Source of the DNA: Sphingobacteriales bacterium
GTDB lineage: Bacteria > Bacteroidota > Bacteroidia > Sphingobacteriales > Sphingobacteriaceae
Length of the DNA: 62,605 bases
Direction of reading: 5' to 3'
NCBI GenBank assembly: GCA_004293485.1
Contig: RDYW01000042.1
Location: 1-62,605, forward strand
A model generated the notes under the pieces. That model saw only the letters and a list, made by a program, of their open reading frames with translations. It was not told the origin of the DNA and did not search any database. Each line of letters opens with the position of its first letter. Position 1 is the stretch's first letter. A program made the position numbers and the translations under genes. Below are positions 32,528 to 53,303 of this stretch, piece after piece.

Positions 32528-32617
32528 TGGCGGAGAGTTAGGGATTCGAACCCCAGGACCCTTTAACAAGTCAACAGTTTTCAAGACTGCCGCAATCGAC
32601 CGCTCTGCCAACTCTCC
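32528..32617 (-). tRNA. tRNA-Ser (anticodon UGA)
   Basis: Acceptor arms GGAGAGT (5' end at 32617) and ACTCTCC pair fully; discriminator G; CCA is encoded (32530-32528). The anticodon loop CTTGAAA gives TGA at 32583-32581, closed by GCAGT/ACTGT with one mismatch-type end pair. A long variable arm (class II) and the T loop TTCGAAT confirm serine. It reads UCA and related codons. The surrounding gap 32440-32809 holds nothing else but the terminator. Confidence 0.95.
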
Positions 32618-33557: not shown

Positions 33558-34127
33558 CTATACTTTACTACACCAATTGCCCAACATTTCTTTTCCATAT
33601 TCGGTTAGTACCGATTCGGGATGAAACTGAACACCTCTAACATCGTGGCTTGTGTGCCTAAGAGCCATCATAACTCCTTTATCATCTTCGGCGGTAATTT
33701 CTATACAAGATGGCAAATTTTCGGGTTGTACAGCCCATGAATGGTAACGCCCAACCTTAAACTGTGAAGGCAAAGCATTAAAAAGTATTTCGTTTTTTAC
33801 AACATTAATATTGGTGGCGGTACCATGTATTGGTTTTGCTAGGTTATACAGTTCGCCACCATAAACTTCGGCAATAGCCTGGTGCCCAAGGCATATACCC
33901 AATATGCTTTTATTTTGACCGTATTGTTTAATTACATCTAACAGTAAGCCCGCTTCCGACGGAATGCCTGGCCCTGGCGATAGCAAAATTTTATCGTAAG
34001 CGTCCACATCGGCTAGGGCAAATTTATCGTTACGCCATACATCGGCTTGCAAGCCTAACTCATTAATTAAGTGTACCAGGTTGTAGGTAAACGAATCGTA
34101 ATTATCTATTACTAATATATTTTTCAT
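33558..34127 (-). CDS. trpG: Anthranilate synthase component II (glutamine amidotransferase)
   Basis: 189 residues. It supplies ammonia to TrpE from glutamine. The class I amidotransferase triad is present: nucleophile Cys in GICLGHQAIAE, and His/Glu in GVQFHPESVLTEYG. The N-terminus ILVIDNYDSFTYNLVHLI is typical of TrpG/PabA. Position 25 nt after trpE, behind a Trp attenuator, favours the tryptophan role; dual use with pabB is possible. Confidence 0.93.
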   Translation of the reverse strand: MKNILVIDNYDSFTYNLVHLINELGLQADVWRNDKFALADVDAYDKILLSPGPGIPSEAGLLLDVIKQYGQNKSILGICLGHQAIAEVYGGELYNLAKPIHGTATNINVVKNEILFNALPSQFKVGRYHSWAVQPENLPSCIEITAEDDKGVMMALRHTSHDVRGVQFHPESVLTEYGKEMLGNWCSKV

Positions 34128-34152: not shown

Positions 34153-35565
34153 TTATACCGTTTCGGCCATTGTTAATGCGTTACGCAAGGCGGCAATTTT
34201 GTTTTTTACTTCGTTTAGTTCGCTTACAGGGTCTGAGTAAGCAACCACGCCCGCACCTGCTTGGTAATGCAATACATTGTTTTTGCTAAGGAACGAGCGT
34301 ATCATAATGGCGTGGTTAAAATCGCCATTAAAACCTAAAAAACCTATTGCACCGCTATAAAAACTGCGTTTTTGGTTTTCGTACTGGTCTATCAATTGCA
34401 TGGCCCTATACTTGGGTGCGCCACTTAATGTACCGGCGGGGAAGGTATCGGCCACAATATTAAAAGGATTTACGCCTGGCATTATGCAGCCTTCTACTTT
34501 TGAAACCAAATGAATAAGGTGCGAGTAATATTGTACTTCTTTGTAAGCTTTAACATGTACATGGTTACAATGGCGGCTTAAATCGTTACGGGCTAGGTCG
34601 ACTAGCATTACGTGTTCGGCCGATTCTTTGGGGTCTTGTTCTAACTTTTCGGCTAATAATTTATCTTCAACATCGTTGCCTGTACGCTTAAAAGTTCCTG
34701 CAATAGGGTAAATTGTGGCTATATTGTTTTTTATAGTGAGCTGCGCCTCGGGCGATGAACCAAAAATTTTAAACCCACCATAATCAAAATAAAACAAATA
34801 AGGCGATGGGTTTATAGACCGTAAAGCCCTATAAACATTAAATTCGTCGCCCGTAAAAGCGGTTGCAAAAGCCCGTGATGGCACAATTTGAAAAACATCG
34901 CCACGGTAAACATGTTTTTTCATCGTTTCTACAAGGGTAATAAACCCTTCATCGCTTAGGTTTGATGTTTCTTGGCCGCTAACTTTAAAGCTATATTCGG
35001 GAAAGTTTTTATTGTTTATAAGGTATTCTATTTTATCTAAGCCATGGCTTTCGGTTTCGTATTCGCTTTGGTTTTTTACAATATACAGCTCGTTTTTAAA
35101 ATGGTCAATCGCTATAATATACCTGTACACGTGGTACTGCATTGTGGGTATGCTGCGGGTATCGGCAACATCTTTTTTAAGTACGATATCTTCAAAATGC
35201 TCCACCGCTTCGTGGGTAAAGTAGCCAAATAGCCCATCGGTAATAAACTTTAAATGGGTATCGGCATCGGTTTTAAACGCCGCCTGAAACTGGCTTATTT
35301 CATCAATTAAAACAAATTCACCTGCGTTTAAGGTTTCTTTTTTACCATCGGGATAATATTTTTTTAGGTTTTGGTTTTCGAGTTTTATGCCTGCAATAGG
35401 GTCGCAGCAGATATAGCTCATGCTGTTTTCGCGGCTATGGTAATCCGAACTTTCGAGCAATAAACTATTAGGGAAAACATCGCGAAGACGCAAATAAATA
35501 CTTACTGGCGTGGTGGTATCGGCCAGCATTTTTTTATATATAACTTTAAATTTGTAGGGTTTCAT
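34153..35565 (-). CDS. trpE: Anthranilate synthase component I
   Basis: 470 residues; converts chorismate and ammonia to anthranilate. The Trp-feedback element near the N-terminus reads LLESSDYHSRENSMSYICCD, close to the LLES motif of feedback-sensitive TrpE. Catalytic-core signatures: RGDVFQIVPSRAFA, SSPEAQL, PIAGTFKRTGND, EHVMLVDLARNDLSRH and AGTLSGAPKYRAM. It heads a trpE-trpG pair; other trp genes are not in the window. Upstream lie a leader peptide with tandem Trp codons and a terminator. Confidence 0.95.
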   Translation of the reverse strand: MKPYKFKVIYKKMLADTTTPVSIYLRLRDVFPNSLLLESSDYHSRENSMSYICCDPIAGIKLENQNLKKYYPDGKKETLNAGEFVLIDEISQFQAAFKTDADTHLKFITDGLFGYFTHEAVEHFEDIVLKKDVADTRSIPTMQYHVYRYIIAIDHFKNELYIVKNQSEYETESHGLDKIEYLINNKNFPEYSFKVSGQETSNLSDEGFITLVETMKKHVYRGDVFQIVPSRAFATAFTGDEFNVYRALRSINPSPYLFYFDYGGFKIFGSSPEAQLTIKNNIATIYPIAGTFKRTGNDVEDKLLAEKLEQDPKESAEHVMLVDLARNDLSRHCNHVHVKAYKEVQYYSHLIHLVSKVEGCIMPGVNPFNIVADTFPAGTLSGAPKYRAMQLIDQYENQKRSFYSGAIGFLGFNGDFNHAIMIRSFLSKNNVLHYQAGAGVVAYSDPVSELNEVKNKIAALRNALTMAETV

Positions 35566-35616
35566 TTTTTAAAATTGTGTTGTTGTAAGTTTTTTTATTG
35601 GGGCTGGGCATAAAAA

Positions 35617-35643
35617 AACCCAACGGATTTTAAGCGTCGGGCT
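35617..35643 (-). terminator. trp attenuator terminator
   Basis: On the minus strand AGCCCGACG (35643-35635) pairs with CGTTGGGTT (35625-35617; one G-U), followed by a run of T. It lies between the leader ORF and trpE. The competing antiterminator pairs 35706-35688 (GCATCGG and TGTATTTT) with 35650-35634 (AAAATACA and CCGACGC), which includes the 5' arm of this terminator. Confidence 0.85.
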
Positions 35644-35685
35644 GTATTTTTAGGATTATAAGATTGATTGAGTTTAAGCTAAAAA

Positions 35686-35754
35686 TTAAAATACATATAC
35701 CGATGCTGCGCTACTATAACGCCACCAACTAAATGTATTTGTATATTTTATCAT
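35686..35754 (-). CDS. trpL: trp operon leader peptide
   Basis: A 22-residue frame, MIKYTNTFSWWRYSSAASVY plus VF, with adjacent Trp codons at 35727-35722. The stop codon lies inside attenuator segment 2. Segment 1, AAATACAT (35740-35733), just before the Trp codons can pair with ATGTATTT (35696-35689). A ribosome stalled on Trp codons would cover segment 1, freeing segment 2 for the antiterminator; a ribosome reaching the stop would cover segment 2 and let the terminator form. This is the classical transcription-attenuation design. It is not product-annotated in most pipelines because of its size. Confidence 0.85.
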   Translation of the reverse strand: MIKYTNTFSWWRYSSAASVYVF

Positions 35755-35761
35755 ATGGCAA

Positions 35762-35791
35762 CAAAATTATAAAGAAAATTGAATATGCAAA
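35762..35791 (-). promoter_or_regulatory. Promoter of the trp leader
   Basis: On the minus strand TTTG (35791-35788) and TAATTTTG (35769-35762) are 18 nt apart, matching the Bacteroidota promoter. Transcription would start about 35755-35757, so the leader peptide would be nearly leaderless. Confidence 0.65.
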
Positions 35792-51624: not shown

Positions 51625-53175
51625 TTGGTAAAGGAATTAATTATTAATTCGACCCCAAACGGGGTAACTATTGCATTATTGCAAGACAAGCAACTTGTAG
51701 AACTTAACAAAGAACAAATTAACAACAGTTATGCTGTTGGTGATATTTATATGGGGCGTATTAAAAAAATTATGCCCGGTTTAAATGCTACTTTTGTTGA
51801 TGTTGGTTACGAGAAGGACGCCTTTTTGCATTATCTGGATTTAGGCCCTCAAGTGCAATCGTTGCTTAAATTAACCAAAATTGCTCGTAGTAGTAATTTT
51901 GACGATACGCTTTTAAATAATTTTAAGCGAGAAAGTGATATTGAAAAATCGGGTAAAATATCTAGCGTTTTAACCAAAAATCAATTACTACCTGTACAAA
52001 TAGCCAAAGAACCTATTTCAACTAAGGGGCCTCGGTTAAGTTCCGATTTATCTTTTGCGGGTAGGTTTGTGGTGTTGGTTCCTTTTTCGGATGTAATATC
52101 TATATCAAAAAAAATACGTAGCAACACCGAGCGTGTGCGCTTACGCAAAATAATTGAAGGTATAAAACCCAAAAACTTTGGCGTAATTATTCGAACCGTA
52201 TCCGAGCATAAAGGCGTTGCCGAAATACAAAAAGATATTTTAGATTTAATATCAAAGTGGGAAGCCTTTATGGCTAAAATGCCCGTTACCGAGCCCTCGA
52301 AACGTATTTTTGGCGAAATGGGAAGAGCTTCAACCATTTTACGCGATATTTTAAACGATGATTTTACAAATATTTATGTAAACGAAGTCGCTATTTTCGA
52401 CGAAATAAAATCGTATGTACACGAGATTTCGCCCGATTTAGAAAAAATAGTAAAAATTTATAAAGGCAAAGAACCTATTTTCGAGCATTTTGGTATTGAT
52501 AAACAAATAAAAGCCGCCTTTGGCCGTACAGTAAACCTTGCCGGCGGAGCTTATTTAGTAGTTGAACATACCGAAGCTTTACACGTAATTGATGTGAATA
52601 GCGGTAACCGTACTGCCATCCCCGAAAACCAAGAGCAAAACGCCCTGCAAGTAAATAAAGAAGCGGCCAAAGAAATTGCCCGCCAATTACGCCTGCGAGA
52701 TATGGGAGGTATTGTAGTAATTGATTTTATTGATTTGCATAAAGCCCCCAACCGTAAAGAATTGTTTGATTTACTACGCAGCGAAATGTTGTTAGATAGG
52801 GCCAAACACACCATTTTGCCTCCAAGCAAATTTGGCTTAGTACAAATTACTAGGCAAAGGGTAAGGCCCGAAATGAATATCATTACCAACGAAAAATGCC
52901 CATCTTGCAATGGTACAGGCGAAATTACTGCCAGCATTATTTTGTTAGATGATATTGAAACCAATATGAACTACATTTTGCAAGAGCAAGCCGAAAAAGG
53001 AATTACCCTTAACGTACACCCTTATATAGAAGCGTACATTAAAAAAGGCTTGTTTTCTATCCAAGTAAAATGGTTTATCAAATATAAACAATGGATTAAA
53101 GTACACGCTGTGGCTTCGTATTCGCTAACCGAATACCATTTTTTAAACGCAAAGCATGAGGAAATTAAGTTATAA
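51625..53175 (+). CDS. rng: Ribonuclease E/G family protein, TTG start
   Basis: 516 residues, beginning with TTG (MVKELIINSTPNGVTIALLQ, the family N-terminus). An S1-like domain (GDIYMGRIKKIMPGLNATFV) with an inserted segment is followed by the catalytic part: IDVNSGNR and VIDFIDLHKAPNRKEL hold the metal-binding Asp residues, and CPSCNGTGE is the Zn-link. It is closer to RNase G in length, without the long E-type tail. It processes rRNA and mRNA. A small basic protein gene precedes it. Confidence 0.95.
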   Translation: MVKELIINSTPNGVTIALLQDKQLVELNKEQINNSYAVGDIYMGRIKKIMPGLNATFVDVGYEKDAFLHYLDLGPQVQSLLKLTKIARSSNFDDTLLNNFKRESDIEKSGKISSVLTKNQLLPVQIAKEPISTKGPRLSSDLSFAGRFVVLVPFSDVISISKKIRSNTERVRLRKIIEGIKPKNFGVIIRTVSEHKGVAEIQKDILDLISKWEAFMAKMPVTEPSKRIFGEMGRASTILRDILNDDFTNIYVNEVAIFDEIKSYVHEISPDLEKIVKIYKGKEPIFEHFGIDKQIKAAFGRTVNLAGGAYLVVEHTEALHVIDVNSGNRTAIPENQEQNALQVNKEAAKEIARQLRLRDMGGIVVIDFIDLHKAPNRKELFDLLRSEMLLDRAKHTILPPSKFGLVQITRQRVRPEMNIITNEKCPSCNGTGEITASIILLDDIETNMNYILQEQAEKGITLNVHPYIEAYIKKGLFSIQVKWFIKYKQWIKVHAVASYSLTEYHFLNAKHEEIKL

Positions 53176-53214
53176 ATTCAAAGATTTTATAACACTAAAA
53201 AAATAACTTATTTA

Positions 53215-53246
53215 AAGCCACCGGTTTAAACCGATGGCTTTTTTTT
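53215..53246 (+). terminator. Intrinsic terminator after rng
   Basis: AGCCA-C-CGGTTT / AAACCG-A-TGGCT, an 11-bp stem with one mismatch, followed by eight T. It ends the HU-TPR-rng series. Confidence 0.85.
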
Positions 53247-53303
53247 GTACAGAATTAAATTTTGTGTAAACAATTACCCTAAAGATTTTTTTAAATTTGA
53301 CAG

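Follow-up and report, generated by a model that had tools for sequence, protein, structure and literature searches.

Whether the short open reading frame (ORF) with two adjacent Trp codons in front of trpE at this locus belongs to a Trp attenuator, and whether its start codon lies almost at the 5′ end of the message, are the questions addressed here. The window, that is, the whole stretch of 62,605 nucleotides that was analyzed, is contig G000:C17 within a 2.2 Mb genome. According to the ORF list, the minus strand carries the whole element, with a 149-aa ORF upstream and trpE-trpG downstream.

Parts and folding of the trpE leader

The first-pass annotation had described a promoter, a leader ORF with tandem Trp codons (WW), and four pairing segments, and all of these were recovered at the positions below. 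It had also placed the −7 box 8 nt from the leader ATG; the closeness holds, and the actual gap is 7 nt.

36250-35801, minus strand: upstream same-strand ORF of 149 aa, ending 46 nt 5′ of the leader ATG
35788..35791, minus strand: −33 element TTTG of the leader promoter (from the sequence and the TTTG peak over 122 leaders)
35762..35769, minus strand: −7 box TAATTTTG, 7 nt 5′ of the leader ATG
35755..35757, minus strand: predicted 5′ UTR of ~3 nt, with a putative transcription start near 35757 (from a box position of −12 to −5)
35686..35754, minus strand: leader ORF MIKYTNTFSWWRYSSAASVYVF followed by a stop, 22 codons, ATG at 35754, stop codon TAA at 35688-35686
35722..35727, minus strand: tandem Trp codons 10 and 11, the putative sensor (sequence, conservation)
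35733..35740, minus strand: segment 1 AAATACAT, from the whole-leader fold, in the weakest helix
35688..35706, minus strand: segment 2 GCATCGG..TGTATTTT, overlapping the leader stop codon by one base
35634..35650, minus strand: segment 3 AAAATACA..CCGACGC, partner of segment 2 or 4 (folds, covariation)
35642-35635 and 35625-35618, minus strand: terminator arms GCCCGACG and CGTTGGGT, the 3:4 helix
35612..35625, minus strand: segment 4 CGTTGGG and T run (35618-35612), the 3′ half of the intrinsic terminator
34153..35565, minus strand: trpE, anthranilate synthase component I (profile match)
33558..34127, minus strand: trpG, anthranilate synthase component II (profile match)

The TTTG element and the −7 box are separated by a promoter spacer of 18 nt. 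TrpE matched the profile trpE_most with an E value of 7.1e-125 and 417.6 bits, which is below the curated cut-off of this model (517.7), and TrpG matched trpG_papA with a score above the curated cut-off. In a scan of contigs from named genomes, the nearest TrpE was that of a Sphingobacteriales MAG, with 97% identity. A tRNA gene was also seen downstream of trpG (window 32531-32617, minus strand).

Three alternative pairings had been claimed for this leader, and folding of the window in the corresponding states yielded all of them. The whole leader folded as 1:2 plus 3:4 at −29.1 kcal/mol (z −0.96), and 34 of 200 shuffles were equally good. When the ribosome was placed on the Trp codons and segment 4 was not yet made, 2:3 formed (−11.8, z −1.84; 12/200 shuffles equally good). 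When it was placed at the stop codon, 3:4 formed (−11.6, z −3.40; 1/200 equally good). The folding energy of the whole leader is ordinary and by energy alone not unusual. Single-sequence folding is weak evidence, and the strength comes from conservation; it was dropped as proof since the whole-leader z of −0.96 was too weak, and relatives were therefore compared.

Conservation and covariation in relatives

DNA upstream of trpE was collected from 130 loci in 128 genomes, two of which contributed two loci each. The loci came from a search of relatives (46), from an even draw of 296 genomes across the phylum, of which 165 had a TrpE match at E ≤ 1e-80 (25), and again from the same draw (60, of which 38 belong to the class and 22 do not), minus one duplicate. 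L132 and L058, from the same genomes as L055 and L036, respectively, were excluded before counting. The start codon was taken as the 3′-most ATG lying 3 or more codons upstream of the Trp pair, or else GTG/TTG; the start of L016 was shifted by hand to an earlier ATG for the alignment-stage analyses.

A short ORF with W.?W was present upstream of trpE in 122 of the 130 loci, compared with 48 of 1300 shuffles (3.7%) and 6 of 130 loci on the reverse strand. These leaders were spread over 27 of 32 family labels, including 37/39 loci of f1, a family label that we read as Sphingobacteriaceae, and 19/22 loci outside the class. A second set, consisting of loci of named genomes with enough upstream DNA (L238 and L239 were left out for short upstream DNA) and overlapping in some species with the 130-locus set, had the leader in 78/78 cases. 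The rule failed in 8 of the 130 loci: inspection by eye revealed leaders whose Trp codons are single or separated in L021, L031, L034, and L042 and a weak leader in L121, and no leader upstream of trpE was found by rule or by eye in L084, L107, and L129. Apart from their Trp codons, leader peptides varied widely between families. Between the Trp codons and trpE, a terminator was found in 121 of the 122 leaders (L086 being the one without it by the rule used), compared with 27 of 366 dinucleotide shuffles. Judged by these two comparisons with shuffles, the Trp leader before trpE is not a chance feature. At one locus (L040, G024:C1), the trpE match was broken by one TGA and one TAG, with leader and terminator still present.

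For covariation, 37 f1 leaders (36 distinct rows) were aligned, and the structure was taken from L001. Helix 3:4 was paired in 99.0% of cells, with 19 cells showing two-sided changes compared with 3.9 in shuffles; the values over the same 36 rows were 82.3% and 26 compared with 12.6 for helix 2:3, and 66.7% and 24 compared with 14.0 for helix 1:2. None of 500 shuffles, which leave the relatedness of the rows in place, reached any of these two-sided counts. For helix 2:3, pairs with two-sided change numbered 5, compared with 4.9 in shuffles, and further pair types 15, compared with 17.1, so that neither was in excess. Column 152 in segment 3 covaries with column 59 (UA 19, CG 10) as well as with column 171 (AU 24, GC 8), and such three-way compensatory change in aligned sequences is the mark of two alternative pairings that are both maintained. 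Helix 1:2 is, in this alignment, weaker than the other two: the three upper pairs of this helix are formed in 38% of cells, and sliding its partners by 1 or 2 columns left 22 two-sided cells against 24 unslid, in a control somewhat biased towards the L001 structure. The first-pass annotation had proposed looking for the Trp codons and the helices in relatives, and both are kept there. Covariation is clear in helices 3:4 and 2:3, and that of 1:2 is weaker.

The pairings were also scored leader by leader with RNAduplex, leaving out L086, which has no terminator by rule, and L124, whose middle region is too short. For 2:3, p ≤ 0.05 against dinucleotide shuffles was reached by 30/37 f1 leaders (mean z −2.96), 0/29 leaders in f26, and 19/54 in the rest; for 1:2, the same level was reached by 11/37 leaders in f1, 7 in f26, and 11 others. 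In folds run with no shuffle control, 5 nt or more of segment 3 paired upstream in the stalled state of 37/37 f1 leaders, and the mean probability of 3:4 in the released state was at least 0.8 in 36/37. In f26 leaders (L093 and L083 among them), segment 2 thus paired with the 5′ arm of the terminator no better than shuffles did; in L093, its partner may be the loop of the terminator (GTCGTGAT and ATCACGAC).

Distance between the promoter box and the leader start

The near-leaderless spacing claimed earlier for the window proved to be conserved across f1. The −7 box TAnnTTTG ended 4–9 nt 5′ of the start codon in all 37 f1 leaders (33 exact, 4 with one mismatch), and the distance in the 33 exact boxes had a mean of 6.9 and an sd of 0.96 nt, with other spacings varying more. 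Over the 122 leaders, TTTG elements peaked 31–36 nt 5′ of the leader starts. When the DNA preceding all 122 leaders was base-shuffled, an exact box that close occurred in 69 of 6100 shuffles, and within the window it preceded 1 of 47 ORFs of 150 aa or more, counted from the first ATG and not curated as genes. Because the −7 box spans −12 to −5 in mapped Flavobacterium, as given in sections of the papers on F. psychrophilum (PMC9723704) and F. johnsoniae (PMC6847099), the 5′ UTR is predicted to be ~3 nt.

Outside f1, the spacing was less uniform. An exact box within 9 nt was found in 20/85 leaders (7/29 in f26 and 13/56 elsewhere), and a one-mismatch box in 10 more; of the 29 f26 leaders, 17 had the box 16–20 nt away from the start and 7 had it within 9 nt. 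In the named-genome set, the distance was 5–9 nt in 54 of 78 loci, 10–13 nt in 12, and 16–23 nt in 11, with no box in 1. Outside the class, the loose pattern TAnnnT ended 6–11 nt before the start in 11/18 leaders (shuffle mean 4.2; 3/2000 shuffles reached 11), a distance range picked after looking and a count that leaves out L124 with its doubtful TTG ORF. Several outside-class Trp leaders (L112–L131) seem to have TTGACA/TATnnT-like promoters hugging the leader start, and in L115, L123, L127, L128, and L131, a hexamer resembling TTGACA or TTGACT was seen by eye upstream of TAnnnT.

The closeness of the box to the start is, across the leaders compared, an unusual trait, conserved in f1 and partial outside it. 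Published maps show longer 5′ UTRs for most Bacteroidota messages: in the accessible parts of these reports, 87% of transcripts with a probable promoter in F. johnsoniae had a 5′ UTR of more than 10 nt (PMC6847099), leaderless mRNAs made up 5.5% in F. psychrophilum (PMC9723704), and 5′ UTRs shorter than 10 nt made up ~3.7% in B. thetaiotaomicron (PMC7366714). Despite this, and despite the apparently different promoter type in some distant lineages, the near-leaderless start may be a selected design of Sphingobacteriaceae Trp attenuators that recurs in other Bacteroidota and their neighbours and is possibly ancestral, the start codon being held at the transcription start for the earliest ribosome engagement with the nascent RNA. 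We hold this reading tentatively, somewhat short of an even chance, and place it slightly lower than we otherwise would because only 20 of the 85 leaders outside f1 have an exact box within 9 nt.

Other amino acid leaders of the same genus were compared. The trpD loci inspected had a Trp attenuator-like leader in 13/13 cases (L154–L166), including that of the own genome (MKTNYTNINWWLYIKL followed by a stop; L156:2503-2622, G000:C78), and their box CATATTTG, with one mismatch to the consensus, lay 8–16 nt before the ATG as read by eye. The distance from box to start was 15–17 nt in Phe/Tyr leaders (the 6 of 7 that could be parsed) and 37–47 nt from box to ATG in His leaders before hisG (10/13 loci by rule). 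The pattern TTTG..ATG..TGGTGG was rejected as a leader finder in the own genome, as it gave 91 hits against 142 in the reversed control; the trpE and trpD leaders are among the 91. His-rich leaders before hisG were seen in L135–L142, L147, and L148, and by rule no His leader was found in the own genome (L145), L144, or L146. Just 5′ of the His leader ATG, a conserved stretch, TTATTAAAAAGAC, looks complementary to a stretch just before hisG, which suggests that another mechanism may operate there. In seven relatives (L288–L294), Phe/Tyr-rich leaders (e.g., MNNNTTYYFGYFYFKNKSRD followed by a stop) and a terminator preceded a putative prephenate dehydratase ORF, so named from a motif; the PF00800 locus of the own genome (L296) had no clear Phe/Tyr leader.

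Known leaders, proposed mechanism and alternatives

At the Rfam gathering score, the window yielded nothing but a tRNA. RF01692 gave no match to the window even at E ≤ 10 (gathering score 49 bits), and RF00513 scored 17.7 bits, below its gathering score of 41. Over 20 loci, of which 14 were from f1 (13 trpE and 1 trpD), only L074 of f26 reached the RF01692 cut-off, and 0/13 other f1 trpE loci did. None of the best 30 candidates scored in the own genome reached the RF01692 gathering score, and with the best 30 candidates per genome scored in 99 genomes of the phylum, there were 8 matches, all in f26 and 6 of them over the cut-off. These f26 matches sit just 5′ of trpE matches, and Bacteroides ihuae was among the controls.

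A covariance model built from the 37 f1 leaders scored 49–84 bits on six Sphingobacteriaceae leaders on which it was not trained (L173, L178, L188, L191, L208, and L218). In 19 f1 genomes, it gave a trpE match of at least 84 bits in 18, all of which were training sources. Its 46.8-bit hit in the own genome (L287) and L295 were rejected as leaders, since they look like plain terminators after genes. Given this resemblance, the scores of 26–50 bits obtained in other families may come partly from the terminator alone. Within the window, 53156-53247 on the plus strand is a weak match to this model (31.4 bits, E 0.03).

Candidate attenuators in Bacteroidetes/Chlorobi were reportedly already named by Vitreschak in 2004. 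As in E. coli trpL (RF00513), the element before trpE comprises a tandem-Trp leader ORF, segments 1–4, and an intrinsic terminator; unlike trpL, whose start codon is at about +27, it has a Bacteroidota-type promoter and a start codon predicted at about +4. RF01692 (Bacteroid-trp, “Bacteroidete tryptophan peptide leader RNA”, Weinberg 2010) is listed as likely cis-regulatory in the source text available (PMC2864571). Both it and the present element are Trp peptide leader RNAs of Bacteroidetes upstream of trpE, but the box lies 4–9 nt from the start in f1 (37/37) and mostly 16–20 nt in f26 (17/29). The leader described in the first-pass annotation is borne out by its conservation; with RF01692, however, Trp leaders were already known in the phylum.

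For F. psychrophilum, the main text of PMC9723704 mentions “strong clues” for leader-peptide attenuation upstream of amino acid operons, a likeness within the same phylum; “trp” is absent from that main text, and the relevant parts of the paper contain no near-leaderless leader. The literature searched, which was mostly open-access and in part excerpts, yielded no description of a trp leader with a near-leaderless start in Bacteroidota. Outside the phylum, trpL/rnTrpL of S. meliloti is leaderless according to the sections consulted, its RNA beginning with the leader ATG, and attenuates before trpE(G) (PMC7298713). With its predicted 5′ UTR of ~3 nt, the present leader would resemble it in being of leaderless type and attenuating ahead of trpE. 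It differs from rnTrpL in that the latter is alphaproteobacterial and has reported trans roles (PMC7298713), of which none is known for the present leader. Mycobacterial polycysteine ORFs, as far as the excerpted source goes, are a further precedent for leaderless attenuator leaders. The near-leaderless box spacing is conserved in f1, and a leaderless trp leader as such has its precedent in S. meliloti.

Taken on sequence evidence, the element is very probably a functional, conserved Trp attenuator, and we are highly confident, short of certainty, that it is a transcription attenuator which works through the ribosome, responds to Trp, controls trpEG, and has a near-leaderless leader. Transcription by RNA polymerase would start ~3 nt before the leader ATG, and a ribosome would load at the RNA 5′ end. 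When charged tRNA-Trp is ample, the ribosome would reach the stop codon and cover segment 2, so that 3:4 terminates transcription. When it is scarce, the ribosome would stall on the two Trp codons and cover segment 1; free segment 2 would then pair with 3 before 4 is made, and transcription would enter trpEG. If a ribosome never loads, 1:2 would form and 3:4 would terminate.

A longer 5′ UTR is possible, because the same-strand ORF at 36250-35801 ends 46 nt before the ATG and could be read through. The same attenuator might then work mostly on longer transcripts from the upstream gene or a farther promoter, with the near-leaderless start incidental. No terminator between that ORF and the leader was reported by a simple sigma-70/terminator scan with a loop limit of 8 and generic promoter scoring, but the leader terminator was absent from the output of the same scan. 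We consider this reading unlikely, though worth keeping in mind: the 33 exact boxes keep a tight distance to the start, with more variation in the other spacings, TTTG peaks at the −33 distance, and on inspection L010, L026, L028, and L030 retain the box although their upstream context differs.

A role in trans for the leader peptide or for a short terminated RNA, with the cis switch secondary, would have a precedent in rnTrpL and peTrpL of S. meliloti, as described in the available part of PMC7298713, and termination would indeed yield a short RNA. However, leader peptides differ widely between families beyond the Trp codons, and the features that covary belong to the cis switch, so we regard such a role as very improbable. 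We give hardly any credence to a plain terminator that has an ORF next to it by chance, or to an untranslated terminator sensed by a protein or tRNA. The unremarkable single-sequence fold would suit either, but leaders in 122 of 130 loci against 3.7% of shuffles and the covariation of 3:4 and 2:3 speak against both, as does a window that at gathering score holds no known Rfam element save a tRNA.

As for annotation, neither of the two trp-leader models in Rfam recognises the element in the tested f1 loci, so a regulator of Sphingobacteriaceae trp operons would go unannotated by these models. Should the near-leaderless start prove real, a phylum whose mapped mRNAs are mostly leadered would use leaderless-type initiation for a timing-sensitive switch, and it would become testable in one reporter how a ribosome lacking Shine-Dalgarno signals stays in step with RNA polymerase.
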